Source of the DNA: Methylorubrum sp. B1-46
GTDB lineage: Bacteria > Pseudomonadota > Alphaproteobacteria > Rhizobiales > Beijerinckiaceae
Direction of reading: 5' to 3'
Assembly: GCF_021117295.1 (NCBI RefSeq)
Contig: NZ_CP088247.1
Coordinates: forward strand, 3,797,001-3,861,000
DNA length: 64,000 nt
Below, piece by piece: positions 370 through 28,996 of the stretch. Position 1 is the first letter of the stretch; every line of letters starts with the position of its first letter. A model generated the notes under the pieces. That model was not told where the DNA came from. It made no database searches and saw only the letters and a program-made list of their open reading frames with translations. Position numbers and translations under genes: made by a program.

Positions 370-2298
370 TCAGCTCGAAGGGTAGGAGTGAACGGCAACT
401 CCGATAGTTGATGCCGGAGGAAGACCCTTGCCGCATGACCGGCCGCGGCAGGCTTCAACTGGTGGCTCGGCCTTGATTTGCGTGAGGAGGCGGCCGCACC
501 GCGAGCACGGCAGGTAGAACTCCCGCTCCTTGTTCTGTCGGTCGCTGGAGGCCGTCGTCCGGTTGTCGAAGTGGCTGACGCGCCAAGCCGCCACGAGGTC
601 GCCCGGCACCAGGCGCCATAGGTCATCGTGGCGGAGACGCCCGCCGTCGTCGATAGCCACGTTCGTCCGCTGCGTCAGGTTCGTCTTCGTGGCGGATGCC
701 GGCGACGACCCCTTCGTACCCGTGGAGCCTGCCCCCTCTCCGCCGGCGAACCCGCCGCGGCCAGGAACCGGCAGGGCCAGGCCGAAGTCGATGTCGTGGA
801 ACTCCTCCCTCCGTTCGGCGCGGCGGCCGGTCGAGCGGAGTAGGACGCTGGCGACGTAGTCGTGGTCGATGCTCAGGTGGCACTCGATGCGTTCGAGTAG
901 GGGGTCCGCCTTAGCGTCGACCGGCACGCTCATGGAGCAGAGGAGCGACCGAGGGTCGGTGGGCGAGACCAGCCCGACCTTATCGGGCTTCGCGATCTCG
1001 ACGACCGCCACGCCCTCCCGGGGGTCCACGCAGTAGAGGCGCGTGTTGGGTACGGTCTTCGTCTCGTTCTCGACCGGGAGCTCGAAGCCGGCCTCGACGA
1101 GCCGGTGGTAGGAGCCGCGTCCGGAGCTGTCCGCCACGAGGATCTCAATGGGCTTCGACAGCCTGAGCCTGAGGCCGTCATGGGCGATCCACGCCGCGCC
1201 CTCGGCGATGATGCGGTCGCCGTTGTCGATGTCCGCCACCCGCCCGACGAACCGCTCGAAAAGCCCGTCGGCGATGGCCGGCATGTTCACCATGCCGCCC
1301 GTCGCGAGGCAGAGCTCGATGTCGCGGTTGGTAAGCCGGGCGCGGGCGAGGATGTCGTCGATCCGCTTGAGCCCGCGCGCCACGAGGTCCGAGCAAACCG
1401 AGTCCAGGTCGGCGCGTGTGATGGTCTCTACGAGGTTTTGGGCGGGGCCCGTCGTCCTCAGGTAGTTCCTGATGATGACGTCCTCCTCGTCGGCGCCTTG
1501 CGCCGAAAGGCCGATCTTCACGATCTCGCACTGATTGAGGAGCTTGGCGCCCATCCCGGGCTGTTCCATGCCGCGGATGTCATGAAGCCGGTGGGACGCG
1601 GCGTGACGGTCTCTCAGGAGGTTGGTCAGGCGGACGTCGAACTCGTCGCCCCCGATCTCGTTGTCGCCGTCGTTCTCGATCTGCATGATCGCACCGCCCT
1701 GAATGCGGCACAGCGTGAGGTCGAGGGTTCCGCCGCCCCAGTCGAAGACCAGGACCGAACGGCCCTCCAATTGGGCTATCTGGCGCTGGTAGTCGGGCCT
1801 CGACCGCAGGTACCCGTACAGCGCCGCCACGGGCTCGTGAACGAACTGCACGACCGAGATGCCGGCCGCCCGGGCGGCCTCCCGCAACGCCCGGCGCTGG
1901 GGGCCGCCGAAGTCCACCGGGATGGTCATCACGGCGCGCGTCAGGGCCACGCCCTCGGCGACCGAGCGCGCCTTCAGGGCGTCGGTCTTCACGTGCCGCA
2001 GCACCTCGGCGACGGCATCGACCGGATCGACCTCGCGCCCCTCGATGAAGATCGGCCCCTCGCGGCGAAGCTTCATCTTCGGCGACCGCAGGAAGCCGGG
2101 CGGCGCGCCGCCACCCGTGAGGTCGAGGTGCTGCTTGGCCTCCCGCCCCACCTTCACGGTGTCGCCCGTGTACCAGACGACCGACGGGTGGGGCCGTCCG
2201 CTCCCGAGGTCCACGAGGGGCAGGGAGCGGTCGCGCACGATGCGCGCCGCGAGGCTGTTGGTCGTGCCGAAGTCGATGCCGAACGTGACGATGCTCAA
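370..2298 (-). CDS. Hsp70/DnaK-like protein with C-terminal zinc ribbon
   Basis: This 642-residue protein has an Hsp70-type actin-fold ATPase domain. Phosphate-1 motif GIDFGTTNS is at residues 7-15, the EPVAALYGY helix near 155-163, phosphate-2 motif FDWGGGTLD at 185-193, and an adenosine-type GGMVNMPAI motif follows near 345. The C-terminal third does not look like a standard DnaK substrate-binding domain and has no EEVD tail. It instead ends in four cysteines (598, 601, 617, 622) spaced like a zinc ribbon. It is the last gene of the defence operon and overlaps the upstream coiled-coil gene by 4 bp, so the two are probably co-translated. Hsp70s fold or remodel proteins using ATP; here a role in assembling or disarming the defence complex, or sensing phage proteins, is inference. 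The call as Hsp70-like is firm; the job is unknown. Confidence 0.85.
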   Translation of the reverse strand: MSIVTFGIDFGTTNSLAARIVRDRSLPLVDLGSGRPHPSVVWYTGDTVKVGREAKQHLDLTGGGAPPGFLRSPKMKLRREGPIFIEGREVDPVDAVAEVLRHVKTDALKARSVAEGVALTRAVMTIPVDFGGPQRRALREAARAAGISVVQFVHEPVAALYGYLRSRPDYQRQIAQLEGRSVLVFDWGGGTLDLTLCRIQGGAIMQIENDGDNEIGGDEFDVRLTNLLRDRHAASHRLHDIRGMEQPGMGAKLLNQCEIVKIGLSAQGADEEDVIIRNYLRTTGPAQNLVETITRADLDSVCSDLVARGLKRIDDILARARLTNRDIELCLATGGMVNMPAIADGLFERFVGRVADIDNGDRIIAEGAAWIAHDGLRLRLSKPIEILVADSSGRGSYHRLVEAGFELPVENETKTVPNTRLYCVDPREGVAVVEIAKPDKVGLVSPTDPRSLLCSMSVPVDAKADPLLERIECHLSIDHDYVASVLLRSTGRRAERREEFHDIDFGLALPVPGRGGFAGGEGAGSTGTKGSSPASATKTNLTQRTNVAIDDGGRLRHDDLWRLVPGDLVAAWRVSHFDNRTTASSDRQNKEREFYLPCSRCGRLLTQIKAEPPVEACRGRSCGKGLPPASTIGVAVHSYPSS

Positions 2299-3314
2299 CC
2301 TTCGGTCTCCTTGATGGACGCCAGGACCGTTCGAATCCGTCGTACGGCGATCTTCGGCTGCGGCGGATCAATCTCCAGCGCGTCGATCGCGTCTCCGAGC
2401 AACGGAACCACCTTCTCCTGCAGCAGAGCCGCCTGGCGGGTCTTCACCTCCACCATGTCGTGTCCCCAGTGCTGCCTGCTGTCGTCCAATTCGGAGCGGG
2501 ACGCGGACACCTGCCCCTTGAGTTCGGCCACCTCGGCCTCAAGCTCCGCGATCCGCCGCTTCAGGTCTCCGGAATAGACCCTGGCCTGATCGAGCAATTC
2601 CTCGGCCTCCCCGCGCTGGAGCTTCTCCTGGTCCCGTTGGGAGATGGCTTCCCGCGTCGAGCGGCCCATGAGTTTGGAGATGGCGACGGCCCGCTCAATG
2701 TCCGCCACTCTGCCAGAGGAGAGCGCATGCCGGACGTGCCTTGTCACCGACGCCTCGCCTTCGGCGTAAGTGTCGCCGAGGATCTGCAGCGCTGTTCCGA
2801 GGTCGAGGTTCCTCTGCCGGACCATCCACGCCAAGCCGAGTTGCAGGATGACCGTCGCCGGTTGGCGAACCGCCGTATCCCCGGACCCGAGTTCGTTCGC
2901 GAGTTCACGGTGCAGTCGGCGTAGGGCCGTGTCGGCCTCGACGTTGTAGGGCTCCAGGACATTCGGTGCGCGAGCGCGGATCGCGGCCTGGACCGCCGGC
3001 CACAGCCAGTTGCTCACCTGCGCGGGAAGCTTGGGCTGCGTCGCGAGCCCGAGCATGCGTTTGTGGTCGCTGTCTCCCGCTCGCCGGAGGCGCTCGGCCT
3101 CGGCGATGTCGTCTTCCGAAAACCTCGACGCCTTAACCTCCGACACGGCCTTGATGAAGTCGCTCGGCCTGACTTCGGTGCCCCCGAAGTAGGTGCGGAG
3201 GAAGGGTTCGACCTTGACCTCTTTCGGCTTGCGCGCCTTCTTCGCCTCCGGCCGTGCCGGCTCCGCGGCCGGGGCCGCGGGTTCGGTCGCTTCTATCGGA
3301 ACGTCGTCTGTCAC
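2295..3314 (-). CDS. Coiled-coil protein of the defence operon
   Basis: This 339-residue soluble protein is not recognised by family. Residues 1-35 are Ala/Pro/Lys/Glu-rich and probably disordered. A central helical part follows, then a heptad-like coiled coil around 228-290 rich in Glu, Leu and Arg, and a short C-terminal helical segment. Its start codon overlaps the zinc-finger gene stop, and its stop overlaps the Hsp70 start (4 bp each), so it is sandwiched in a translationally coupled trio. A long coiled coil beside an Hsp70 recalls the GrpE nucleotide-exchange factor layout, but no GrpE signature is visible; that idea is speculation. A scaffold or Hsp70 partner is the most that can be said. 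Confidence 0.7.
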   Translation of the reverse strand: MTDDVPIEATEPAAPAAEPARPEAKKARKPKEVKVEPFLRTYFGGTEVRPSDFIKAVSEVKASRFSEDDIAEAERLRRAGDSDHKRMLGLATQPKLPAQVSNWLWPAVQAAIRARAPNVLEPYNVEADTALRRLHRELANELGSGDTAVRQPATVILQLGLAWMVRQRNLDLGTALQILGDTYAEGEASVTRHVRHALSSGRVADIERAVAISKLMGRSTREAISQRDQEKLQRGEAEELLDQARVYSGDLKRRIAELEAEVAELKGQVSASRSELDDSRQHWGHDMVEVKTRQAALLQEKVVPLLGDAIDALEIDPPQPKIAVRRIRTVLASIKETEG

Positions 3315-4459
3315 TTGGTCACCGTTTCAAGAGCGGGTTGCGCCCAGGCGTCGAAGGGGTGCACCGCGGCGATCTGCGAGAGGGGCTCCACGGCTTGGTC
3401 CGGGGCCTTGAGGCGCAGTGCGGTCAGGGCCCAAACCGCAAGTGCCTTCTGGCGGTCCGGGAGAACCAATGCACCGTCCCCGGCGACTTGGAGGCACTCG
3501 CTTCTCAACACGGGGCTCCAATGGTCCTTTCGCGACATCGCCTTTACCAGCCCCAGGAGCCGGTCGGTCCCGTGATCGAGCGGGCATGCCTTGAGCCGCG
3601 AGGCTGGCGCGTCTGGAACGACGATATGGGCAACCGCGGGACCACGAAGTAGCTCGGTCGCCGCGTCGAGCTCATCGTAGCCGGAAGCTACGGTACCGCT
3701 ACCGAACTCGTTCAAGGCGAACCGCATGACCGAGCACAGCAGGTGCGGGAGGGGGCGACGATGCACCCGCAGCTTCTGGAGCGCCGCCGTGAACGCCTCA
3801 GTGAAGCTATCGAGGGAGGACGAGACCCTCTGGCCATGGGGCTGCTCCTTGATCAGCACGCCTAGGACGTACTCCGCCATGCCCTCCGCGTAGTCCGATC
3901 CGGTCCCTTGGCATCGGGCATCCTGCCGGAAGCGGCGCGCCGTCTCGCGGGTCGGCACGCCCTTTGTCATGTGGTCCATGAAGGCGCGGTCGACTGCATC
4001 CAGGTCCCCAGGGGCGGCGACCCGGAAACGGACGTCGTAGGTCGTCGTGACGGGCTCCGCGCCGCGCAGCTTGCCGTTGCTCAGGCGTATGCGGGCGACC
4101 GACCTATCGAGCCTCGCCATGAGCGATCCGAAGGTCGACTGATCGACCGGCTCCGGAGGCATGCCGTCGACCGAGACGGCGGCGGCGGTGGCATTCGCAA
4201 GGATATAGTCGGAGGGCGCACGCCGTTCGCGAACGGTGAAGGTCAGTCCAGGCTCAATCCCCGAGACGAGCAGCGTCGGCCGGTCGACCGGGTGTGCCAC
4301 CGAAAGATGGTCCTGGAGATCGCGCGGCGAGATGGCGACATGGGTGCAGAAGGGGCAGCCATAGCTGCGGGGTAGCGGACCACGCGGGTCCGGGACCTTC
4401 TGCGTCGCGGACAGGAATGCCTCGCTCGCGTCCTCATGTACCCAGCCGAAAGTAGGCAT
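3311..4459 (-). CDS. C2H2 zinc-finger protein of the defence operon
   Basis: This 382-residue protein has one canonical C2H2 finger near the N terminus: Cys35 and Cys38, then His51 and His56 (C-x2-C-x12-H-x4-H). C2H2 fingers are uncommon in bacteria and usually bind nucleic acid or protein. The remainder (about 60-382) is mixed alpha/beta and not recognised. The gene lies 46 bp after the PLD-helicase gene and overlaps the coiled-coil gene by 4 bp. A DNA- or RNA-binding adaptor for the system is plausible but inferred. The start ATG at 4459 is the first in frame before the finger. Confidence 0.7.
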   Translation of the reverse strand: MPTFGWVHEDASEAFLSATQKVPDPRGPLPRSYGCPFCTHVAISPRDLQDHLSVAHPVDRPTLLVSGIEPGLTFTVRERRAPSDYILANATAAAVSVDGMPPEPVDQSTFGSLMARLDRSVARIRLSNGKLRGAEPVTTTYDVRFRVAAPGDLDAVDRAFMDHMTKGVPTRETARRFRQDARCQGTGSDYAEGMAEYVLGVLIKEQPHGQRVSSSLDSFTEAFTAALQKLRVHRRPLPHLLCSVMRFALNEFGSGTVASGYDELDAATELLRGPAVAHIVVPDAPASRLKACPLDHGTDRLLGLVKAMSRKDHWSPVLRSECLQVAGDGALVLPDRQKALAVWALTALRLKAPDQAVEPLSQIAAVHPFDAWAQPALETVTK

Positions 4460-4505
4460 CCCGAATCCAGCGCCCCTGTCGTTTGAAGCCTAGCAGCAGT
4501 TTCGG

Positions 4506-7253
4506 TCACCAACCCTTCCGCATGAACTCCTCTATATCGCGCGAGGAGAGGATGCGCTCCGTGCCCTCCCAATCGAGACCGACGTCATCCGCCACGTCGC
4601 GGAAGTAGCGCCGTTCGACCGGGGAACGGATGCGGTCCACCCGCTTCGGAAACAGCTTGACGGCCTCGCGGTCCTTCAGCACGGCGTCGACCCAGTCGTC
4701 CTCGAAGGAGTCGGGCAACTGGCCCAACACCTTGAATATGTCCTCGAACCGCTCCGATAGGGCGCCGTAGACCTCGTCCTCGTAGGTGCCGGCGTAGCGC
4801 AGGTTCGCGACGTGTATCCGGGGGCGCGGCTGCCCAATGCGCTGGATGCGGCCCTTTCGCTGCTCCAGGCGCGACGGGTTCCAGGGCAGGTCAACGTTCA
4901 CCTGCGAGCCCAGGCGCTGCAGGTTCAGCCCCTCGCAAGCCGCGTCGGTGGCTGCCACCAGCTTGATCGTCCCCTTCCGCACCTCCTCCTTGATGTCGTT
5001 ACGGTCGGTGCGGCGCCTCTCGCCGTTGTGCAGGACGAACGACCGACCGCCGCCTGCGTAGATGGCGACGGGCTGCTCCCGGAAGCGCGCTGCCAGGCCT
5101 TCGGCTACGAACTCGGCCGTATCGAAGAACTGGCTGAACGCGATCATGCCGTGGTCGGCGAGCCATCGGTTGTCGGCGAGGTAGCGGATGATGACTTCGA
5201 CTTTGGGGTCCATCCGGCCGCGGCCGAGGACCGCCTGGAGGTGCGCCTCCACCTCGCGGAGGGCCTCCGCTTCATCCGGCGTGAGCGGCATGCGCTCGCG
5301 CTCCTGGGCGTAGAGATCCTCGTCCCCGTCGTCGATGGCGGACCCGGTCGTCGCGCCCGCGAGCAGGGCCTGCGTCGTGTTCAGGCCGGCCGCGACCGAC
5401 GAGCCGATACGGCGCAGCAGGATGGTCTTCATGAACCCCGCGGCCGGCCGCGTGCGCGCATATAGCCCGCAGAAGCGCGTGGCGGCGTCGTACGCCTGGC
5501 GGAACGAGAGGCCCATCTCCAGGCCATCGCCGGAGAAGAGCTCTTCCGGCAGTCCGTCGCCTTCGCGTGGGTGTACGACGACGTCGATGCGGGGCAGGAG
5601 GCCGGCGTTCTCCAGCATTGAGCGAGAGCGGCGGATGACGCGACGGATGATCGGGTTGGTCTGCTCCACCAGCGTCGGGAACTCGCTCCGCAGCCTGCTC
5701 CTCTGGCCTTGCGAAAGGTCGTCGTAGCGGGGGCCGTCGATGCGGCTGTCAGCTAGGCGGTGAGCGGTGCGAACCACCTTGTAGAAGCCGGCCTCGTTCG
5801 TTGGCGGCAACGGGTTGCGCAGCAGCGCCCACTGGTCGGTCGGATCCTCCGGCCAGGGCTTCTCCCCGGTCAGGTAGTGTATGCTGCTATCCGACGACCA
5901 CGCGCGGCTGCCCTCCCTCCCGAGCACGTGGCTCGTGCCCTTGGCAAGCATCGCGATGAGGTCGTGCAGCTCCACCGCCTTGAGCTGGATCGGCGTTGCG
6001 GTGCCGATGATGACGTTGTCGGAGTTGGCGGCGAGCCGCTCCATGAAGTCGAGGAGGCGTTTGGCGCCGACCCGGGCGTCGTCCTTCCCGCTGCGGTCGG
6101 CCCTGGCCTTGTGCGCCTCGTCGAGGATCACGACACCGAAGCGGCTCTCCCGCAGGTGCCTGATCTCGCCGTCCTCGTCCCCGCTCACGATGAGCCCGGT
6201 CGAGACGATGCCGATGCGCATGGGGCAGCGCGCGACCGCGCCGGCGTCACCCTTCGGCGAAATGGCGAACTCCTTGCCGTCGAGCCACTGCTTCTTGGCC
6301 GAGGACCAGATGGCCGACGGCAGGCCGAGCATGTCCTCTAACTCGGTCTGCCACTGCCGCGTCAGGGTCGCCGGAGCCAGGATCAGGACGCCGCCGCCGG
6401 AGAGGAGCGATAGCACGAGCGCGGCGGCAGCCATCGAGAGGGTCTTGCCGAGGCCCACGTCGTCCGCGATCAGGAACCGCGCCTTGCCGTAAAGGGCATG
6501 GTCGTCGACGCAGGCCTGTACGAACCGCTTCTGCCAGGGGCGCAGGATCTGCCCGGTCTTGTAGATTGGTCGCTCGATGAGGGCCGCGGCGGGGTTGGAA
6601 AGGCCGCCCTCCTTCCGGGCCAGGTCGATGGAGGCGTATTCTAGGCGCTGCGACACCGCGCCGATGTGGCTGACGACCGCCTGCGGCAGGTCCACGCCTA
6701 AGTCCCAAAAGTACTCGAACTCCTCACGCACCCACTTGGTCGCCTCGGGGTCGTCGTCCTCCCAGAGGATCTCATAGGAGTGCAGGAGGCCGGTGGCGCT
6801 CTCGTTCATCGAGCCGACGAAAGCCGTCGAGCCCCCGTCGCGGAACTCCATGATTCCGGCCTTGCCGTGCACGAAGACGTTCGTCCCGTCCTTGGGCACT
6901 ACCTTCACCCGCATGCGCCCCGACGCGAGAAGGTCGTGCAGGATGCGGTAGCGGCCCTTCGCCAGGAGTTCCTCGATGCTGGACTGGCCGGCCATCCAGC
7001 CGGCGACCAGCGCGCGCGACAGTGCGTCCGAGCCCTCGCTCGCGGCCTTCGCGACCCGGACGTCGTTCGGGTCGAGCTCGGCGTTGCACACGACCCGGAT
7101 CTCGTCGACGCCCGAGAGTTCCTCGGACACGAGTTCGAGGAGCGACGACCGGAAGTAGCCGGCGATGCGCAGGTAGCGGCGCGAGCGCGAGAGGCGCTCG
7201 CCCAGGACATCGCGCAGGGACCCGCGACGGGAGGAGTGACGCTGCAGGGCCAC
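4506..7253 (-). CDS. PLD-like nuclease domain fused to SNF2 helicase
   Basis: A 915-residue two-part protein. Residues 1-165 form a phospholipase-D-like domain with a single HKD-type motif (His129, Lys131, then GSMN at 147-150); bacterial PLD domains of this kind are often nucleases. Residues about 235-830 are an SF2/SNF2 helicase: Walker A GLGKT at 267-271, a DEAH box, the TATP motif, and late motifs ending in QRKGRIQRIGQ. It would translocate on DNA using ATP and may cut it. The pairing of PLD and SNF2 helicase parallels the separate DrmC and DrmD components of DISARM and is typical of defence islands. It begins 20 bp after the methylase gene stop. The domain call is firm; nuclease activity is inferred because only one HKD motif is seen, so a dimer would be needed. 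Confidence 0.85.
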   Translation of the reverse strand: MALQRHSSRRGSLRDVLGERLSRSRRYLRIAGYFRSSLLELVSEELSGVDEIRVVCNAELDPNDVRVAKAASEGSDALSRALVAGWMAGQSSIEELLAKGRYRILHDLLASGRMRVKVVPKDGTNVFVHGKAGIMEFRDGGSTAFVGSMNESATGLLHSYEILWEDDDPEATKWVREEFEYFWDLGVDLPQAVVSHIGAVSQRLEYASIDLARKEGGLSNPAAALIERPIYKTGQILRPWQKRFVQACVDDHALYGKARFLIADDVGLGKTLSMAAAALVLSLLSGGGVLILAPATLTRQWQTELEDMLGLPSAIWSSAKKQWLDGKEFAISPKGDAGAVARCPMRIGIVSTGLIVSGDEDGEIRHLRESRFGVVILDEAHKARADRSGKDDARVGAKRLLDFMERLAANSDNVIIGTATPIQLKAVELHDLIAMLAKGTSHVLGREGSRAWSSDSSIHYLTGEKPWPEDPTDQWALLRNPLPPTNEAGFYKVVRTAHRLADSRIDGPRYDDLSQGQRSRLRSEFPTLVEQTNPIIRRVIRRSRSMLENAGLLPRIDVVVHPREGDGLPEELFSGDGLEMGLSFRQAYDAATRFCGLYARTRPAAGFMKTILLRRIGSSVAAGLNTTQALLAGATTGSAIDDGDEDLYAQERERMPLTPDEAEALREVEAHLQAVLGRGRMDPKVEVIIRYLADNRWLADHGMIAFSQFFDTAEFVAEGLAARFREQPVAIYAGGGRSFVLHNGERRRTDRNDIKEEVRKGTIKLVAATDAACEGLNLQRLGSQVNVDLPWNPSRLEQRKGRIQRIGQPRPRIHVANLRYAGTYEDEVYGALSERFEDIFKVLGQLPDSFEDDWVDAVLKDREAVKLFPKRVDRIRSPVERRYFRDVADDVGLDWEGTERILSSRDIEEFMRKGW

Positions 7254-7273
7254 CGGTTCGCTCCTGTGCGCGC

Positions 7274-10216
7274 TTAGACCTTATCGACTTCAAGGCGCTG
7301 GGCCAGGAGGTCCGCCGCCGAGCTCTCGACCGGCCGGGTCTTGGATGTCTTGGCCGACACGTACTTGGCCAGGGCGACCAGCTTCGCCCGGCTGGGCCAG
7401 TAGTCCTGACCGAGCTCCGTCCTAATGAACGCGAGCCCCTCGCGGGGGTCGTCCTTCTGCATCGTCTTGTGCGTAGCGAATAGGACGCGGCGCAGGTGCG
7501 AGGACCCGAAGCCGTTGCCGCCCAGCATTCGACCCTTTAGGGCCCCCGCGCCAGCCAGGGAGGCGGCGTTCGCCTTCGTCGAATCCATCAGGTCGGTATG
7601 ATCGGTGACGGAGAAAGTGCGCGCGAAGTCCTGGTAGTCCGCGTATTTCGTCGTGCCTTTGCTCTCCATATCGAGCATCCGGACGTAGAACCGGGACGTC
7701 GTGTCAAGGTCCCGCCACATTGCGGGTGGAAAGCCTTCGGGCACGAGCTTGTTGTTCGCGACTGAGGCGGCGTACTCGATCAGCTCGCGGATGACCGTTT
7801 TCTCACCGCGGGCGAGCTTCCTGTAGATGTCCGCGCCGACCTCCTTCCGGTCGATGGTCGCGTAACTGGTGATGACCCGCAGCGCGGCAGCGTAGGCAGC
7901 GAGCTGCAAGTCGCCGTCTGTGTAGAGACGCTCCGAGGTCCAGTCGTCGTCCAGGGCATTCAACGAGGCGAGTTGGGCATCAACCTCGGTCTCGATCTTC
8001 TCCTCGATCTCCATCCGCCTCGCATTGCCGCCGCCGATGCGCTTGCGAAGCACAAGGAGGACGGTTCCCTGGACGTAGTTGCCTCCACCCGTGGGCTTGG
8101 CGATCTCGGTGACAACGTTCCATGCAGCGGTGACCCTCAGGTCGGCGGCCCACATGATGGCAGCCAAGTCCGCCCAGACCCCGGCGTCTTGATGAGTAAA
8201 CATGACCACCTGCATGCCATTGTCCGGCATCTGGCGCGAAAGAGCCTTGTAGGCCGCGACCATGTCGGACCTGAACTTCTCGTCGGAGCCCTTGACGGCC
8301 AGGCTCCGCTGGCTGTCCCAAGTCCAGCCATCGAAGGGTGCCGGCGGACGCTTCCTGAGCCAGCCGATGAAGAACTCGGTTATCTCGTGATAGTTGATGG
8401 CGTCCGCGTACGGCGGGTCAGAAACGCCGATGTCGATTTCTTCGGAAAAATCGAGCGCGGACATGTTATGCACCGCGCCGGACCCAGCCAACACCTGTCG
8501 TTCCCCGAGCTCAAGCACGATATGCTCGTTCAACCCGCGGGTAGCGCGGACGCCGTAGTTGAAGAGCGTGTTGAAAGCCTGGTTCGAAAAGAGATGGCTG
8601 ATGGACTCGCGCGCCGCTCCGGTCCCGTAATAGCAAAGCTTGTTGCCCCAATCGAGTGCTTTCGCGAGGTTGAGGTATAACGAAGGTTGCATGCGCAAGT
8701 CGCATGCGTGGATGTGTTTCGAAACCAGGGCGAAGTACAGGAGGTGCCTGGCGCCGAACAACTGATGCCAGTAGCGCCAACCGCGCTCGCGCATTGGCTG
8801 GGACGTGTTATCGCCTGGCAGGATCGGCTGGTCAGGGATAAGACCAAGCCCCTGCCACTCGTCGATGTTCGAAGCGACGCAAGCCGTAACCTTTGCCTCC
8901 CGTTCGAGATCGGCATCACTCACGGCTGCGAAGAACGTATTCTGGCGCGACTTGCCGATGGTATCTCTCTCAATCCACTGAATGCAGTATAGGCGCTCCT
9001 GAAAAATATCAGATTCTGCCGGCCTGAATTCATTCTTCGTCCAGGGACGGAGCTTGTTAGCGTTGCGCCCATCATCGCCACGGTAGTCGCCCCTGATTAC
9101 GCTAATTGCCACGCCATCCGCTTCCGGGTTGGCTGGGTGGACGAGCCGCCCGTCTCGCAAGGTTCCCTTCTCGGACAAGGCCAGCTCTGCTTTCGTGACA
9201 CCCGTGACGATGTCGATGTCGTATCGCTTGTTGCCGCTGTCCGGACGCAGCCGAGCGACGACGTTGCGCGATTTCGAGATGATGAACGTCGGGAGCAGCG
9301 GCACCATCCAACCCGTACGGGGGCAGCGCGTCTCGATGCAGTACAAGTAAGCCTTCGCCCGGTTACCCTCCGCGTCATGCTCGATGCCCAATCCGGTGAC
9401 ATCTGCATCGACAGCCTCCGCGACCGCGCGTTGGGCGGCCTCGATCTCCGCCCTCGTCCGAGCGTCGGCGCCGATGACGTTGAAGCCCCCCCAAGTGAGC
9501 ATGCAAGCGATGGGGTTGAGATCGGATGCATGGACGGAGCAACCGATGCGCGCAGCCTCGAAGGGGATCGAGCCGCCGCCGCAAAAGGTGTCGGCCAGCC
9601 TAGGCCGTCGCCCATAGCGCATGACCCCGAGTTGCTCGATCAGCCCCGCGACGGATGTGGCCGAGGTTCCCAGATGGGCGTTGACCTCCTCCCAGATGTC
9701 GCTGAGCAGTTCCTCCTCGCGGCACTCGTCCGGCCGCAGGCAGAAGTCCAAGCGCTTGTCGTACGGGAGCGTCAGGACCCACTCGGCCAAGAGCTCCTGA
9801 CGCTGCTCGCGCGACAGGGTTTTGCGGTAGGCGGGCTTGGGGTCCGGCTCGACGAGCTTGAGGTACTCGGGCCATTCCGGGTCGACCTTCGCGGCCGGGA
9901 TCGCCTTGAGGCGCTTCAGGAAGGCCGCGTCGTCCATACCCATCAGCAGAAGGAATATGCGGAGGTCCTTGATGGGGTCCTTGGTCGAAGGCAGCAGGCA
10001 GCCCAGGACCGTCGCCCGAACGAGGATCAGAGGCTTGCGCCCCTTCCAGTAGGTGCCGAGAACGGTCAGCAACTGGCCCTGGACGGCCGAGCGCTCCTTG
10101 AAGGACTCGGCTGACGCCCGTCCCACTGGGAACTGGGTTTCCAGGAAGGAGGGGGCATCCCTCAAAGCGAACGGGACGACGGCGCCGGCCGCCACAACGG
10201 GGCTATGGACGTTCAC
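7274..10216 (-). CDS. DUF1156-type adenine-specific DNA methyltransferase
   Basis: A 980-residue N6-adenine methylase of the DUF1156/COG1743 type. AdoMet motif I (DTFCGGGSIPFEA) starts at residue 209, a Cys pair (about 293 and 298) sits in the inserted zinc-ribbon region, and the catalytic DPPY is at 600-603. The start chosen is GTG at 10216 because it overlaps the upstream DUF3780 stop as GTGA; the frame stays open about 100 codons further upstream but that part is out-of-frame shadow of the DUF3780 gene. Methylases of this family travel with DUF499 ATPases in defence islands and probably mark host DNA as self. The target site cannot be read from sequence. Confidence 0.85.
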   Translation of the reverse strand: MNVHSPVVAAGAVVPFALRDAPSFLETQFPVGRASAESFKERSAVQGQLLTVLGTYWKGRKPLILVRATVLGCLLPSTKDPIKDLRIFLLLMGMDDAAFLKRLKAIPAAKVDPEWPEYLKLVEPDPKPAYRKTLSREQRQELLAEWVLTLPYDKRLDFCLRPDECREEELLSDIWEEVNAHLGTSATSVAGLIEQLGVMRYGRRPRLADTFCGGGSIPFEAARIGCSVHASDLNPIACMLTWGGFNVIGADARTRAEIEAAQRAVAEAVDADVTGLGIEHDAEGNRAKAYLYCIETRCPRTGWMVPLLPTFIISKSRNVVARLRPDSGNKRYDIDIVTGVTKAELALSEKGTLRDGRLVHPANPEADGVAISVIRGDYRGDDGRNANKLRPWTKNEFRPAESDIFQERLYCIQWIERDTIGKSRQNTFFAAVSDADLEREAKVTACVASNIDEWQGLGLIPDQPILPGDNTSQPMRERGWRYWHQLFGARHLLYFALVSKHIHACDLRMQPSLYLNLAKALDWGNKLCYYGTGAARESISHLFSNQAFNTLFNYGVRATRGLNEHIVLELGERQVLAGSGAVHNMSALDFSEEIDIGVSDPPYADAINYHEITEFFIGWLRKRPPAPFDGWTWDSQRSLAVKGSDEKFRSDMVAAYKALSRQMPDNGMQVVMFTHQDAGVWADLAAIMWAADLRVTAAWNVVTEIAKPTGGGNYVQGTVLLVLRKRIGGGNARRMEIEEKIETEVDAQLASLNALDDDWTSERLYTDGDLQLAAYAAALRVITSYATIDRKEVGADIYRKLARGEKTVIRELIEYAASVANNKLVPEGFPPAMWRDLDTTSRFYVRMLDMESKGTTKYADYQDFARTFSVTDHTDLMDSTKANAASLAGAGALKGRMLGGNGFGSSHLRRVLFATHKTMQKDDPREGLAFIRTELGQDYWPSRAKLVALAKYVSAKTSKTRPVESSAADLLAQRLEVDKV

Positions 10217-10860
10217 GCGAAAGCCTCCAGTCGGCCAGAGATCGCCTTGAGGGCAGCAAATTCGACGCGCTTCTGAGCGATGTCGGGTTGCTGAGCCGCG
10301 CCCGTGTTCTTCCTGGGCGGAAGGTGGCCGCGGCCGGTCATGACGCCGAGTGAGAACACGTCGCGCTTCGTTCCGAAGCACAGCGCCCGTCTGAGGGCGT
10401 CGCGCCACCCCATCCCCGTCTGGTGGGCGTAGCCCGTCGAGGCGGCGGTCATGGTGTACAGCCACCAGCGCTCTTCCGGCTTGAGCCCGAGCCAGTTCCG
10501 GATGGCGACGTCGCACTGCTCCACGGACACGTCGTCCTGCTCGATGGCCCAGACGAGGACAAGGAGCTCTTTGCCGAGGAGGCGCTGAACGCCGTTGTTG
10601 CCCTGGGTCCAGGAGCCGGACCGCTTGCGCTCCGCCTTCAGCCGTCGGTTAAACTCGGAGCGCACCTCGCCCGAGACAGCATCCCACTTGGCCTTGGGCA
10701 GTTGTGCCCTGAGGACGACCTCCGGGGATAGGACTGCCTCGGTCGCGACCGGCGGTCGCCCGAAGACCTCGAAGACATCGACGGTGTCCTTCGTAGCTCG
10801 GGGCACCTGCACGAGGTAGCAATGCTCGACGTAGTAGTCGGCACAATCGAAGTCCGGCAT
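10213..10860 (-). CDS. DUF3780-type defence-associated protein
   Basis: A 215-residue protein resembling the DUF3780 family, which is known almost only from its position between DUF499 and DUF1156 genes in defence islands. It has a Trp-rich central stretch (residues about 100-165, including RWWLYTMTAA), no membrane segment and no visible catalytic motif. It is coupled to the methylase by a 4-bp GTGA overlap and follows the ATPase gene by 12 bp. A structural or specificity role in the methylase complex is inference. The family call rests on recalled sequence style plus the diagnostic neighbourhood. Confidence 0.7.
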   Translation of the reverse strand: MPDFDCADYYVEHCYLVQVPRATKDTVDVFEVFGRPPVATEAVLSPEVVLRAQLPKAKWDAVSGEVRSEFNRRLKAERKRSGSWTQGNNGVQRLLGKELLVLVWAIEQDDVSVEQCDVAIRNWLGLKPEERWWLYTMTAASTGYAHQTGMGWRDALRRALCFGTKRDVFSLGVMTGRGHLPPRKNTGAAQQPDIAQKRVEFAALKAISGRLEAFA

Positions 10861-10872
10861 GACGCTAAACCC

Positions 10873-13800
10873 TCAGACGCCGTCGTCCTGCGCCCACTTC
10901 ATGGTCTCAAAATCGAGATCCACGGCGTCGGCGAACACCTTGTAGTCCTTACCGGTAGCGAACCGGGTCTCGTTGAAGCTCGCGCTCGCACGGGTCGCCG
11001 TGAAGCTGCCCGACTGGGCCACCGACGAAATCACCGTCGTCACGGCATCCGCGGACATGGAGACCCCGTCCCCGAATGTGATGTCGGCGAACACGCCGAC
11101 ATCCTCCGAACCGATCTCGATCTGTCCGCCTCGCACCGTTGCGCCGGTCGCGGCCTGCAGGGCCGTCATTGCGTCAGTCAGGCGGGTGATGGAATCGAAA
11201 CGGAGCGCCTGGCGAAGCAGTAGGGGGCGGTCGTCGCGGATCTCCTTCGGTCGCGGATGCGGCTCAGGACCGTCGCCTTGGGTAAGGCGCACTTCCTCGC
11301 CCGTCCGCCCATCGACCGCCGGCACGAGCCTGACTTCCTTGGCAGCGCCTGGCACCGATAGGGGGCTTGAGACCACTGAGCCTTGCATCGGGTCCGAGCC
11401 GTCGAACGAAGCGCGGACCTGCGCGGAGCGCGGTACGACCGTCCACTCGATCGTCGTGCCCGTCGAGGTAGAGGCGGCGTGGGCAGCGAGCCTGACTGGG
11501 GCGAGCCACTCGACCGGGGGACCCGACTTCGCCTCGCCCCGGCTGTCCACGGGCAGGAACCAAACCCTGGAAGCGCTTGTCTCGTAGCTGCGGCCCGCGA
11601 CTTTCCCGGAGACGGTCGGGTCGGGGTGCCCAGTCTCCGAGGCGTAGACCGTGTCCGCCTCTTCGGGTGTGACAATCAGTTTGTAGACGCCTTTTTCAAG
11701 GGCAGCGTCGAGCGAGCCTTCGAGCCTGACGGCGACAGATGTTACCCGCTCGTACTTCTTTTCAATGAGACCGTTGCGTTCGCGCCAGTGCTTCGTCCGC
11801 ACTATCTCCGTGATGAGATGGTCAAGTCCTCCGGTCGAGAGCCAGTACCATCCGGCCTTCGCCGCAGCCTTGCGCCTCAGTTCCCCACGTTGGACTGCAT
11901 CTGCGTCGAAGAGCTCATGCTCTGCTTCCTCGCGTAAGGTCGCGATTTCAGTCTCGATCTTGGCCGCGGGGTAGAATTTCCCCCGGGCCTCAAGCGTCTT
12001 GAGGATTTGCTCCTCGCCCCGATAGTCGTTGTTATCGAACTCCATACGGAATTGGCCGTAGTCCCGCAGGCCTGACCCAGTCGGGAAGACGAGTGTGGTG
12101 AACGTCTCCCTTACAGCCGAGGTGAAGCTGTTCGCGACGCGCGCCTTGATGCCCTCCACCTCGCGCATCTGGGTCGATTCTTTGCCATGCCGCTGCGCGA
12201 TGGCCTTCTCGACGATGGAGATAGCCCGCATCTGGCGAGCGATCCCGCGCAACGAACCGAGCGAGTTGAGGTCGGCCGTTAAGATGAGGACCCGGTTCTG
12301 GCGGTCGAGCTTCCTCCACCACTCGATGAGGTCCGGCGGAAGGCTTTGGGCCGGCCGCTCCACGACGACTAGCGTAACGTCCTCCTCGCCGACCTTGATC
12401 TCGTCAAGAGAGGGTAGGATGGCCAAATTCTTGTTGTAGAGCGCCTTGGTCTTGGGTTCGAAGACCTCCGCCAGCTTGTCCCTAAGTTCCTGGTCAACAA
12501 CCTCCTCGGCCAAGCTGGCGCCTGTGTTGTTGATCTCCGACACGACGTTGGCGACCTGGCCGAAGTAGATGCGCTCATCAGGTCCCTTGAACAGGTACTC
12601 CGCATTTCCGGCGAGCTTGTCTAAGGCTGTCGAGATTGCCGGCGTCCTGGTGAGCGGGTCAATGAGGAATTCGATGACCTCCGACCGACGGAGTCCACGA
12701 ATGGGCTGCTCAGCCATCGACAGCGACGACATCAGGATCAGCTTAGAGATAGACGTCGCCGTGGAAGAGCCTTCGCCGGCGTCGATCTGCTCGGCCAGGG
12801 CATTGCCCCGGTCTGCGATGTCTTTGGAGATGGCGTTCGTATAGTGGTTGTTGATCTTGCGGATCTCCTCCACGGTACCGGGATGGTTCAGGTCGAGGTG
12901 CTGGAGCCCAATGAGGAAGATCGAGTCGTTCGACGCCCAGGCATTCCGAACGGCGAGCCGCAGGATGCGGATGAGCGCCCGGGTCTGCTGGTAACCCGGG
13001 TTCTCCTTGAACCGGGCGACAATGTCTCGGATGGACGGGTGGAAGGGATACGTCTCCCGTATCCGGGCGATGAAGCTCTCCGGTATGGACGGGACGTCGT
13101 CGACCTTCTTGGCGCGGTTGAGCTCGTCTACGTAAGCCTGTGCAATCTCGTCGATGGCGTCTCCGTCGGGAAGCTTGTCGAAGAGCTTCTTGCGGATGAT
13201 CTGGAAGACCTCGCCTGAGTTTTGCTGGACCGGCGTGATGGCCTGGGCGTATTTGCCGTACTGCTTGTTTAGCGTGTTGATGAGAGTCTTCAGCTTGCCC
13301 GAGCCCTCGGCGAAGACATCGTCGATCAAGTTCGTGACGACCACGCAAGCCCGCGGCAATTGCGACAGGGCGTTGAACAGGCGCTCCAAGGCGCCGATTG
13401 TGATGTCGGCCAGCGTCGAGTTGCCGACCGCCTGGCCCTCGGCCATCTGCAGGTAGCTCGGGAGCTCGTCCAGGAGGATCAGCACGGGCCCGTCGCCGAG
13501 CGTCGCGACCCAGTCGTCAACGCCGGGCGTCTTGGCCCCGTCCTTCCAAAAGCGCGCCATCGCCTCGGGGCGTTCCAGGCGGTCTGCGATCTCGCCCCAG
13601 AGGAAGTTTGACGGGTTCTGGTGGCCATTGAAGATGACGACCTTCGCGGAGCCGAAGGTCGCCGTCGGGGCGATGTTCGGGATGATGCGGTGGCGCAGGC
13701 CATCGTCCTGCGCGAGGAGAGCGAAGGCGATCAACGAGTGCGTCTTGCCGCCGCCCATCGACTGCGAAAGGTAGAAGGCGCCGTCGCCGGTCCTGCCGGA

Positions 13801-13986
13801 GAGGCGGTCGAAGCCGTTACGGACCAGGGCGTTCAGGCCATCGGTGAAGTGGTTGCGCCTGAAGAACGCGTCCGGGTCGATCTTACCCTTGTGAAGGTCG
13901 TCCAGGTTGGCGATCTGGTCGACGAGGCCATCCTTCGAGACGATGTCACTGACGTCGCAAAGTTGCCTTACGCTCTGAATGGCCAC
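10873..13986 (-). CDS. DUF499-type AAA ATPase of the defence operon
   Basis: This 1037-residue ATPase belongs to the DUF499/COG1483 type. Walker A SMGGGKT is at residues 76-82 and Walker B LILLDEL at 169-175; a long helical region and a beta-rich C-terminal part follow. Proteins of this family are large P-loop ATPases found with DUF1156 methylases, broadly analogous to the BrxC/PglY ATPases of BREX. It probably powers DNA recognition or remodelling in the complex. Its start overlaps the stop of the upstream RHH gene by one base. No nuclease motif is visible in it. Confidence 0.85.
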   Translation of the reverse strand: MAIQSVRQLCDVSDIVSKDGLVDQIANLDDLHKGKIDPDAFFRRNHFTDGLNALVRNGFDRLSGRTGDGAFYLSQSMGGGKTHSLIAFALLAQDDGLRHRIIPNIAPTATFGSAKVVIFNGHQNPSNFLWGEIADRLERPEAMARFWKDGAKTPGVDDWVATLGDGPVLILLDELPSYLQMAEGQAVGNSTLADITIGALERLFNALSQLPRACVVVTNLIDDVFAEGSGKLKTLINTLNKQYGKYAQAITPVQQNSGEVFQIIRKKLFDKLPDGDAIDEIAQAYVDELNRAKKVDDVPSIPESFIARIRETYPFHPSIRDIVARFKENPGYQQTRALIRILRLAVRNAWASNDSIFLIGLQHLDLNHPGTVEEIRKINNHYTNAISKDIADRGNALAEQIDAGEGSSTATSISKLILMSSLSMAEQPIRGLRRSEVIEFLIDPLTRTPAISTALDKLAGNAEYLFKGPDERIYFGQVANVVSEINNTGASLAEEVVDQELRDKLAEVFEPKTKALYNKNLAILPSLDEIKVGEEDVTLVVVERPAQSLPPDLIEWWRKLDRQNRVLILTADLNSLGSLRGIARQMRAISIVEKAIAQRHGKESTQMREVEGIKARVANSFTSAVRETFTTLVFPTGSGLRDYGQFRMEFDNNDYRGEEQILKTLEARGKFYPAAKIETEIATLREEAEHELFDADAVQRGELRRKAAAKAGWYWLSTGGLDHLITEIVRTKHWRERNGLIEKKYERVTSVAVRLEGSLDAALEKGVYKLIVTPEEADTVYASETGHPDPTVSGKVAGRSYETSASRVWFLPVDSRGEAKSGPPVEWLAPVRLAAHAASTSTGTTIEWTVVPRSAQVRASFDGSDPMQGSVVSSPLSVPGAAKEVRLVPAVDGRTGEEVRLTQGDGPEPHPRPKEIRDDRPLLLRQALRFDSITRLTDAMTALQAATGATVRGGQIEIGSEDVGVFADITFGDGVSMSADAVTTVISSVAQSGSFTATRASASFNETRFATGKDYKVFADAVDLDFETMKWAQDDGV

Positions 13987-14249
13987 TACTTCTTCCCTCC
14001 CATGGCCGCACCTTCCCGGCGTGCGTCCAGCAGATGCGTGACGGCTTCCTCGACCAGTTCGTAGACCGGCCTGTTGTCGTCGAGGGCCGCCTTCTTGAGG
14101 TTGAGGATCAGGTCGGGATGCAGGTAGACATACAGCGGCCGCCGCCCGTCTGAACGGGGAGCCGTCCTGCCCTCTTCGGCGCCAAGAACCATCGGTGCAA
14201 TCCAGCCATCCAGATATCTGACGCTCTCACGGGCGGGTCGATTCGACAA
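13986..14249 (-). CDS. Small ribbon-helix-helix-like protein, first operon gene
   Basis: An 87-residue protein whose central part (about 38-75) has the pattern of a ribbon-helix-helix fold: a short strand (YVYLHP) followed by two helices ending in VEEAVTHLL. RHH proteins are usually dimeric DNA-binding repressors or antitoxin-like regulators. As the first gene of the operon it could be its autoregulator. No partner toxin is visible next to it. Upstream DNA is IS66 remnant, so the operon promoter may lie within 14250-14500; no clear -35/-10 pair was picked out. Confidence 0.65.
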   Translation of the reverse strand: MSNRPARESVRYLDGWIAPMVLGAEEGRTAPRSDGRRPLYVYLHPDLILNLKKAALDDNRPVYELVEEAVTHLLDARREGAAMGGKK

Positions 14250-27349: not shown

Positions 27350-28996
27350 TCAGTGACGCGGCGCGAGCCGGTCGCGGCCGGCCAGCACGGTCTCGACCAG
27401 GCGGCGCAGGGGACGGAGCGAGCCCCCTCGCCAGTGCCGCCCGACGAGCTCGATCTCCTCGCCGTCGAGGTCGGGCAGCCATGCCGCGTCGAGGCCGCGA
27501 TCGGCGCGGATCTCCGCGATCAGGTTGGCCGCGACTACGGGCAGGTGCTCCGGCCCCGGCGACGGGACTTCCAGGATCCGCATGCGATCCAGCAGGGCCC
27601 CCGGGATCCCGGAGAGGCTGTTGGCCGTCGCAAGGTACGTGACCGCGCTCAGGTTGACGCCCGTCTCGATGTAGAGGTCGAACCGGGATCTAGCGTTCTC
27701 GCGCTCAAGGAAGGGCAGCAGGACGTCGCCGAGCGAGCCGTTGCGGCGATCGGCGGACGACTTCTCGATCTCGTCGATCCCGATGCAGACGCTGCCGACT
27801 TCCTCTTGAAGGATCGCCTGAAGGGGGACCGACGCGCGCCCGGTTCCCCATTGCCGGCTCGTCCCGCCGAACGAGCCATCCGACGCGCCGGCCGCCGAAT
27901 ACAGGCGCAGCGGTAGCCCGAGCAGGCGGGACACCGCCCGGACAGTCGCCGTCTTGCCGGTGCCGGGCGGGCTGACGAGGACGGTCGGCCGGAGCCACGC
28001 ATAAGGCGCGCCCACCAGGTCTTGAGCGAGCGTCTCGAACACCGGTCGCAGCCACGGCGCGGCGGCCGAGCCTTCCTCGACGAACCGCTGCGGGTCCGGC
28101 GCCGGGAGCAGCGGCAGCGCCTTGCCGGCGATCTTCTCGAACTCGGCGCGGGGCGAGTCCCTCCGTTCCTGGGCGTACGTCGTCGGCTTCGCGAGGTGCC
28201 CGAGCGACGAGACGACGACGAGCGTCCTTGGGGCCGGTACCTTCGGGGCTGCCTCCGCAGGCGCGGGGGTCCCGGGCTCGTCGCCGAAATCGAGCGCGAG
28301 GTCGCCGTCCTGAACCGGCGGAGCCATCATGCCGGCGCCGCCGCGGAGGACGTCGTCGGCGGCCTGGAGCTGCGCCTCGGCGTCCCGCAGCGCGTAGCTG
28401 AATGCGCGCCAGCGCTCAGCGTTGAGCTCGCACCTGCTCATCCGCGCGTAATTCGGTTCCGGATTGTACGGCTCGTTCGTCTTGTCTTGGCAGGCGTCGC
28501 TCGACCAGACAATTGCCGATCGCATGCAGAGATACGCCTCTCCGTAGTATTCAAGATTTATTAGAAAGCTTGCATGCTGAATGGCAGCCGCCGAGATCTC
28601 TGCCGACGCCTGAGGACAACCAAGCGCGGCGAGGTTAAAGGCCAGCGCTTCGTGGCATCGTGCCGAGGCCTGGGCGATCCCGAATTCGGCAGCTTCGGAC
28701 GTGCTGAGCTCGAACAGTACCGTGCGGACGCGGCGAAGCGTCCGCGCGTTCGGGTCACTGGTCGCGGCCTGGACTGCGCGCCGGCAGCGGGAGGGGAGCT
28801 CAGCAGCGGGGAGCCAGCCGAGGCGAATTGCAGCATCGACGCGCGCATCCCAGCCGACGAACTCGCCGCCCGCGAGCATTTCGTTGCGTGGAAGGGGGGC
28901 GCTCGGCGCCCGGGGACCGGTTACGTGAGTGCTATCGCGTCGCGCGCGCGCGACCGCGTTTGCCGCCTTCTGGCGGTCGGACTTCTTCGTGGACAT
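27350..28996 (-). CDS. Lon-like AAA+ ATPase without protease domain
   Basis: A 548-residue protein. Residues 1-220 are a helical, Cys-containing domain I do not recognise; 220-300 is a Pro/Ala linker; 310-540 is an AAA+ module like that of Lon: Walker A SPPGTGKT (342-349), Walker B with DEIEKS from 408, then TANSLSGIPGALLDRM, a sensor and arginine-finger-like segment. The Ser-Lys protease domain of Lon is absent, so it is probably a remodelling ATPase. It is the first gene of a minus-strand operon of five. A role in phage DNA packaging, replication or exclusion of other phages is open. Confidence 0.75.
   Translation of the reverse strand: MSTKKSDRQKAANAVARARRDSTHVTGPRAPSAPLPRNEMLAGGEFVGWDARVDAAIRLGWLPAAELPSRCRRAVQAATSDPNARTLRRVRTVLFELSTSEAAEFGIAQASARCHEALAFNLAALGCPQASAEISAAAIQHASFLINLEYYGEAYLCMRSAIVWSSDACQDKTNEPYNPEPNYARMSRCELNAERWRAFSYALRDAEAQLQAADDVLRGGAGMMAPPVQDGDLALDFGDEPGTPAPAEAAPKVPAPRTLVVVSSLGHLAKPTTYAQERRDSPRAEFEKIAGKALPLLPAPDPQRFVEEGSAAAPWLRPVFETLAQDLVGAPYAWLRPTVLVSPPGTGKTATVRAVSRLLGLPLRLYSAAGASDGSFGGTSRQWGTGRASVPLQAILQEEVGSVCIGIDEIEKSSADRRNGSLGDVLLPFLERENARSRFDLYIETGVNLSAVTYLATANSLSGIPGALLDRMRILEVPSPGPEHLPVVAANLIAEIRADRGLDAAWLPDLDGEEIELVGRHWRGGSLRPLRRLVETVLAGRDRLAPRH

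Follow-up and report, generated by a model that had tools for sequence, protein, structure and literature searches.

A C2H2, coiled-coil, and Hsp70 gene triad beside a restriction-like core of Methylorubrum recurs as a module among unrelated DNA-restriction operons

The stretch of DNA analysed here, called the window throughout, comprises 64,000 nucleotides of Methylorubrum sp. B1-46 (NCBI RefSeq assembly GCF_021117295.1, contig NZ_CP088247.1, positions 3,797,001 to 3,861,000 of the forward strand), and open reading frame (ORF) calling places eight co-directional ORFs on its minus strand between positions 370 and 14249. In transcription order, these encode an RHH-like protein, a DUF499 ATPase, a DUF3780 protein, a DUF1156 methylase-like protein, a PLD-SNF2 helicase-nuclease, a C2H2 zinc-finger protein, a coiled-coil protein, and an Hsp70-like ATPase carrying a zinc ribbon (Table 1). 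The RHH-like ORF overlaps the DUF499 ORF by 1 bp (gap -1), and the following gaps measure 12 bp (DUF499/DUF3780), -4 bp (DUF3780/DUF1156), 20 bp (DUF1156/PLD-SNF2), 46 bp (PLD-SNF2/C2H2, the largest), -4 bp (C2H2/coiled coil), and -4 bp (coiled coil/Hsp70). This packing, the defence-type core of DUF499, DUF3780, DUF1156, and PLD-SNF2 genes, recovered by PADLOC, Pfam, and NCBIfam, and the unusual pairing of such a core with a chaperone had been put forward in an earlier note made from the sequence alone, and all of them hold. The note had also read the eight genes as one system, a view given up here because the DUF499/DUF1156 core adjoins the last three genes in only 6 of the 78 other loci surveyed. 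The operon consists of two modules, the restriction-like core and an independent C2H2, coiled-coil, and Hsp70 triad, and the standing of the triad as an independent module is very probable. Judged from conservation in distant relatives, the observation itself (eight genes, their domains, and the zinc ribbon) lies far beyond chance.

The first triad protein is modelled with a beta-sandwich at residues 58-147, followed by TPR-like helices at residues 155-382 (VIA-align). No PADLOC or NCBIfam family matches it at E<=0.01, and 24 relatives appear at E<=0.001 (7994 scored candidates, own included). Its designation as a C2H2 protein, made in the earlier note, stands by the four invariant ligands of a single finger rather than by a family match, zf-Di19 scoring 19.6 bits against a cut-off of 27.5; the best PDB profile matches of the finger region are C2H2 fingers. 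Within this gene, ARAGORN calls a tRNA-Pyl at window positions 3806-3900 (minus strand), which is taken as a false positive. The coiled-coil proteins form three subfamilies, mutually homologous by hhalign (98.4-99.6%). GrpE was rejected as an identity for this protein, the hhalign probability being 1-3% for the three subfamilies against 25 GrpE sequences. A metagenomic protein of 261 amino acids, P0030, joins the start of a coiled-coil protein in frame to the start of an Hsp70 and is either a fusion or an assembly artefact.

The third protein, the Hsp70, has 1912 relatives at E<=1e-60 (7998 scored candidates), and one of its regions aligns to the substrate domain of mitochondrial Hsp70. Identities and residue counts were obtained from the 65 of 79 rows (64 surveyed loci and the window) in which all three triad proteins are full length. 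The Hsp70 keeps its ATP-site residues, and ATPase competence is predicted for it: D9, T12, T13, E155, D186, T191, and D193 are found in all 65 full-length triads and K74 in 64. The zinc ribbon, as the earlier note had it, is retained in far relatives, with C598, C601, and C617 present in 60 of the 65 (gaps in the other 5) and C622 in 52. Mean pairwise identity is 45% for the Hsp70, 27% for the C2H2 protein, and 20% for the coiled-coil protein. No triad member has a PADLOC match, and no nuclease family was recognised in the triad by sequence (PADLOC, Pfam, NCBIfam), a divergent one being conceivable.

The distribution of the triad was surveyed with an alignment of the Hsp70 and two peptide patterns, scanned against one genome per species (84,980 species), which yielded 183 confirmed relatives. 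The best 80 were kept, corresponding to 78 distinct loci (numbered with the prefix L), a selection in which distant or rare contexts may be missed. In six-frame profile searches, the C2H2, coiled-coil, and Hsp70 genes share one order and one strand in 74 of 79 loci (the 78 and the window), the exceptions to the full triad being L012, L015 (on a 3.2-kb contig), L019, and cyanobacterial L078 and L080. The Hsp70 of L078 and L080 is accompanied by a C2H2-type gene and by a different middle gene of 375-391 amino acids, unmatched by the coiled-coil profiles. Pairwise identities are correlated among the three proteins (0.74-0.78), a level reached in none of 500 permutations. Rows of the Hsp70 tree, many of them metagenome-assembled, carry the labels Pseudomonadota, Myxococcota, Thermodesulfobacteriota, Chloroflexota, Cyanobacteriota, Acidobacteriota, Gemmatimonadota, Nitrospirota, Binatota, and Campylobacterota. 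The family is rare: among 111 genomes of the window's genus, 2 carry the Hsp70, and among 398 of the phylum, 2 match the C2H2 profile, with the window's own genome counted each time. No description of the triad was found by full-text search of the literature, and the three-gene chaperone package is apparently undescribed.

Hosts were assigned by running PADLOC and Pfam on representative flanking genes, carrying the annotations over by clusters and profiles, and then placing the genes in order; the host table was tabulated by hand, with labels also extended by shared clusters, for example between L054 and L021 and between L066 and L043. A separate set of 37 chosen unannotated neighbours, roughly <=350 bp from the triad, out of 118 flanking ORFs listed, gave tallies without member names. 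Genes of restriction-modification (R-M) type or of related defence systems lie in or beside the operon at 36 of the 78 loci; none was recognised in the operons of the remaining 42, where neighbours are partly annotated and some contigs are short. BREX type 1 accounts for 12 loci, ten of which hold the triad in the pglX-pglZ interval (L028, L032, L037, L047, L048, L056, L057, L062, L063, L075), sometimes together with GmrSD or other genes, while L039 and L046 have BREX at the end or beside. The Hsp70 of L063 escaped ORF calling and so appears in neither the operon table nor the tree; the triad genes of this locus were seen by profile search. DUF499 systems enclose the triad in L016 and L018 (between DUF499 and DUF1156) and in L041 (between an SNF2 helicase and DUF1156), and the DUF499/DUF1156 core stands at the end or beside in L006, L013, and L038. 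Type I R-M places the triad between hsdM-S and hsdR in L052 and L055, the specificity subunit being inferred from position and length, and at the end or beside in L049. Further hosts, at the end or beside, are type III R-M (L021, L043, L054, L066), DISARM drmA with an MZB protein (L042), IIG R-M (L026, L074), Wadjet (L061, with JetC matched and JetD assigned by position and length), EVE-McrB (L008, L009, L011, L019, with McrC matched in L011), and GmrSD (L045, L050, L076). L045 was counted as GmrSD-bearing despite its relic BREX, and neither L034, with a helicase fragment, nor L065, with BREX genes upstream beyond an opposite-strand ORF, was counted as a host.

Three side observations concern the same neighbourhoods. 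Immediately upstream of the triad, the loci L035, L036, L038, L039, L043, and L051, which are mostly beta-proteobacterial, encode a dynamin-like GTPase fused to an MIT_C phospholipase-D-like domain, and this gene may form a four-gene variant with the triad; the same family is also found upstream of PglX in L062 and L063. Type IV enzymes of the GmrSD kind are repeatedly found close to the triad, both within BREX and elsewhere (L020, L028, L045, L047, L048, L050, L062, L076). Additionally, a protein of 163 amino acids lies between DUF499 and the triad, identified as DUF7680 in L016 and belonging to the same cluster in L018.

Altogether, 15 of the 78 loci place the triad between core genes of one system, and these systems are large, ATP-driven complexes. 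This arrangement favours the main rival explanation, namely that the triad is a house chaperone that folds, assembles, or disassembles the large restriction and methylation complexes around it. The retention of the active-site residues of a real Hsp70 agrees with such a role, as does the TPR-like fold, which is common in co-chaperones and whose structural matches include SPAG1, RPAP3, FKBP38, and Cpr7. However, the recognised hosts showed no subunit that they all share, and with the observations on relics, selection, and plasmid cores given below, the house chaperone is rather unlikely.

The history of the triad was followed on a quick maximum-likelihood tree of the Hsp70, built from 74 of the 79 rows (Hsp70 ORF >=480 amino acids) with SH-aLRT as the only support. 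Of these rows, 27 carry a host label and 47 belong to no group; the label 'SNF2_DISARMlike' was given before methylases of type III or IIG were recognised in L021, L074, and, by shared cluster, L066. The starred branches force at least 5 changes for the BREX label and at least 4 for the DUF499 label, while type I is compatible with one origin and EVE-McrB forms one group. Hosts differ between sisters in, among others, the pairs L048 (BREX)/L066 (type III) and L041 (DUF499)/L074 (IIG/SNF2), and L038 (DUF499) and L039 (BREX) fall within one starred set of three. The triad has thus changed hosts repeatedly among unrelated DNA-restriction operons. Such transfer is repeated yet not free, since the labels are clustered on the tree, with 9 changes against a shuffled mean of 14.4 and none of 200 shuffles as low.

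The same tree bears on the reading of the eight genes as one system, with the chaperone integral to a DUF499/DUF1156 machine. The nearly gapless operon speaks for it, and the Parvularcula locus L006 repeats the same seven-gene order without the RHH gene, its DUF499 being cut by the edge of the available stretch. The earlier note had itself named rarity of the core beside the last three genes as a refuting outcome, and the count of 6 in 78 is such a rarity; DUF3780 was found by tblastn in only one of the 78 triad loci, again L006. Moreover, the window Hsp70 groups not with L006 but with L003, L004, and L005 (98*), in which tblastn finds no DUF499 core within the available stretch. Since the window and L006 are not sisters, the arrangement of core and triad probably arose more than once, and together with the scarcity of the core at other triads this leaves the single-system reading largely refuted and highly improbable.

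Relics and substitution rates describe the triad apart from its hosts. L045 retains a full-length triad with GmrSD, surrounded only by pieces of PglX (its C-terminal part) and BrxL, and in L034 a fragment of an SNF2 helicase of 143 amino acids, 80% identical to L041, precedes a full-length triad; both loci are metagenome-assembled, and the relic search used one representative per BREX gene. In 14 close pairs, the nonsynonymous rate (dN) is below the synonymous rate (dS) in all three triad genes wherever dS could be estimated, the highest dN/dS being about 0.43, for the coiled coil of L035/L051. The pair L031/L040, which has no recognised R-M genes, gives dN/dS of about 0.08 (C2H2), 0.15 (coiled coil), and 0.08 (Hsp70), at dS values of 1.8-3.0, near saturation. 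Judged by these rates, the triad is under purifying selection even without recognised restriction genes beside it. Selection on such triads, together with one triad that outlived its BREX host (L045), weighs against the house chaperone.

The relics and the triads without recognised R-M genes also lend weight to another explanation, in which the triad defends the cell autonomously, functionally unconnected with its hosts, and restriction operons are simply convenient landing places. Integrase or recombinase genes in several loci, and the sharing of the BREX interval with further accessory genes (GmrSD, for example), point in the same direction. Nevertheless, chance landing accords poorly with co-directional embedding at short gaps in unrelated hosts and with ten loci, not all independent, in the same BREX interval, and this explanation is considered unlikely.

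Turning to the neighbour of the triad in the window, the core is, judged by its domain make-up, the published Type-2 BR set, a DUF499-centred, BREX-related restriction-like system, and the "anti-phage" set of NCBIfam. The NCBIfam scores are 776 bits for DUF499 (NF042962, cut-off 1200), 173 for DUF3780 (NF042961, cut-off 200), 1254 for DUF1156 (NF042963, cut-off 1000), and 1044 for PLD-SNF2 (NF042964, cut-off 1100); with three of four under these strict cut-offs, the core is regarded as a diverged member of the set. Presumably, this is also the restriction-like RL system of Gao et al. 2020. In the helicase-nuclease, an N-terminal HKD/PLD nuclease domain (PF13091) occupies residues 19-183, and the helicase domains lie between residues 237 and 807. 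The DUF1156 gene most likely starts at 10216 rather than at the ORF maximum of 10516, as family matches begin at residues 12-25 of the version of 980 amino acids. In PMC12839542, Type-2 BR is described in 1120 taxa, with self methylation and PLD-helicase restriction inferred there. The operon has each of the four core genes, matching the published domain make-up and in the order of two annotated plasmid loci, and differs in that an RHH-like gene precedes the core and the triad follows it. The main text of PMC12839542 contains no words beginning with Hsp70, C2H2, chaperone, or DnaK. Among the eight proteins of the window, no PglZ or BrxC match was obtained with PADLOC (for the helicase, among the best 25 of 45 rows), and the operon is not assigned to BREX; both proteins are present in other triad loci.

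The first gene was called RHH in the earlier note, and the label is softened here to RHH-like, as a weak Pfam match exists and stays under its cut-off. The encoded protein is a probable autoregulator, and BLAST matches it to none of the three small ORFs that precede DUF499 in two plasmid loci. Elsewhere in the window, at 27350-28996 on the minus strand, lies an AAA-ATPase of 548 amino acids (PF00004). To the left of the Hsp70, beyond the left edge of the window in the same genome (L089:4009-9033, 9729-12388), are an ISL3-type transposase ORF and an HTH-rich ORF, with an HTH-IrrE protein and a Prok-E2_A/ThiF protein farther left. These mobile and HTH-IrrE/ThiF-type genes suggest that the operon borders a mobile, possibly defence-rich stretch.

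Table 1. Features of the eight-gene operon, in order of transcription, with window coordinates.
Feature	Position	Strand	Support
RHH-like protein, 87 aa, gene 1	13986..14249	-	PF20605 22.1 bits, under 27.2 cut-off
DUF499 AAA+ ATPase, 1037 aa	10873..13986	-	PADLOC DUF499 E 8.9e-200, 664 bits; PF04465 77.4 bits (cut-off 23)
DUF3780 protein, 215 aa, stand-alone	10213..10860	-	PF12635 175.8 bits (cut-off 27)
DUF1156 adenine-methylase-like protein, 980 aa	7274..10216	-	PADLOC DUF1156_MTase 1130 bits; PF06634 57.8
PLD-SNF2 helicase-nuclease, 915 aa	4506..7253	-	PADLOC PLD_Helicase 881 bits; PF13091 and PF00271
Triad gene 1, C2H2 zinc finger/beta-sandwich/TPR-like protein, 382 aa	3311..4459	-	AF2 (AlphaFold2) model, pLDDT 88.9
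C2H2 ligands C35, C38, H51, H56 of triad gene 1	4292..4357	-	Invariant in 66 aligned sequences
Triad gene 2, helical bundle and one continuous helix of ~110 residues (203-314), 339 aa	2295..3314	-	AF2 pLDDT 85.8
Triad gene 3, Hsp70-like ATPase (nucleotide-binding domain, NBD, and region like substrate-binding domain beta, SBD-beta), C-terminal zinc ribbon, 642 aa	370..2298	-	PF00012 153.9 bits
Zinc-ribbon cysteines C598, C601, C617, C622 of Hsp70	433..507	-	

The core also occurs without the triad. DUF3780 was found on 20 plasmid records (E<=1e-8), with no Paenarthrobacter among those listed; just two plasmids, of Paenarthrobacter in each case, carry the Hsp70 family (E<=1e-80). In the three of the 20 DUF3780 loci that were examined, the core is present and the triad is not; in one of them, L123, a different kind of Hsp70, with DUF2760, lies a few genes off, and the family profile gives it only 61 bits. 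That these three plasmid cores do without the triad speaks further against the house chaperone. The existence of DUF499 cores without the triad likewise counts against an immune brake, in which the Hsp70 would restrain a toxic restriction effector or alleviate restriction, as ClpXP does for HsdR. The hosts are indeed nuclease systems, and PMC12707154 describes how ClpXP controls type I HsdR; still, triads persist without a recognised host, and a brake is improbable.

Among known systems, the nearest Hsp70 precedent found is CnuD of the CoCoNuTs, described in PMC11090510. Type III CoCoNuTs resemble the triad in combining an Hsp70-like NBD/SBD protein (CnuD/CnuCD) with coiled coils in a restriction context, whereas the triad has intact ATP-site residues, a separate C2H2/TPR-like partner, and recognised hosts that are mostly DNA-restriction operons. 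No McrB GTPase or McrC DUF2357 domain was matched among the window's eight proteins (Pfam, E<=0.1), and the locus is not classed as a CoCoNuT. CnuD is proposed to bind RNA (PMC11090510), and by analogy the Hsp70-like domain of the triad could be a sensor of viral or aberrant RNA. In the same paper, CnuD is a separate Hsp70-like protein of type III-B/C CoCoNuTs, usually with coiled coils, and the zinc ribbon and zinc finger of the triad could bind nucleic acid. However, the Walker A-like motifs of CnuD are degenerate according to PMC11090510, while the triad Hsp70 keeps its ATP-site residues, and this, with the lack of a McrB/McrC match by Pfam among the window's eight proteins, makes an RNA sensor hardly probable.

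The DnaK-GrpE-DnaJ machine offers a second comparison, sharing the Hsp70 NBD with a conserved ATP site and the region that aligns to the substrate domain. The triad differs in its coiled coil, which is unrelated to GrpE, in its C-terminal zinc ribbon, and in the absence of a J-domain match, no such family being detected among the eight proteins with Pfam at E<=0.1 in a search by sequence, a J-like fold being conceivable. A third comparison concerns PrrC, PARIS, and BrxU, presented in PMC12839542 and PMC12707154 as second-line modules of R-M or BREX operons that sense inhibition or act on other targets. Like the triad, with its 15 of 78 loci within the core of one system, PrrC, PARIS, BrxU, and GmrSD are accessories of type I R-M or BREX operons, encoded within them or next to them; unlike the triad, in which no nuclease was recognised and whose ATPase is an Hsp70, they carry nucleases.

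Such sentinel modules in R-M and BREX operons, together with an ATP site that is intact, unlike that of CnuD, favour ATP-driven protein remodelling. We infer that the triad may be an autonomous second layer of immunity that acts on proteins rather than nucleic acids, with a probability of roughly 45%. In this scheme, the faster-evolving C2H2 protein would recognise a protein that signals infection; the likeliest candidates are an anti-restriction protein of a phage and a restriction complex that is blocked or stalled, because most recognised hosts are restriction systems. The coiled-coil protein would oligomerise or bridge, and the slowly evolving Hsp70, with its ATP site intact, would clamp and remodel the target. 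The more specific proposal of a portable immune device, composed of a zinc-finger/TPR-like adaptor, a coiled coil, and an Hsp70, that senses anti-restriction proteins or jammed complexes without a nuclease of its own, is put forward only tentatively and remains doubtful.

Known bacterial immune effectors are mostly nucleases, NADases, and pores. If the triad is a protein-level immune layer, chaperone chemistry would be added to bacterial immunity, and the presence of the same three genes in pglX-pglZ intervals, hsdS-hsdR intervals, and DUF499 operons would be explained. If the more specific device proves real, it would be a general back-up layer across ten phyla, in BREX, type I, type III, DUF499, DISARM, McrBC, and Wadjet operons. 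Were the triad an assembly chaperone instead, it would point to a need common to restriction machines of unrelated mechanism. The triad provides a simple genetic test of whether restriction operons carry guards against their own inhibition.

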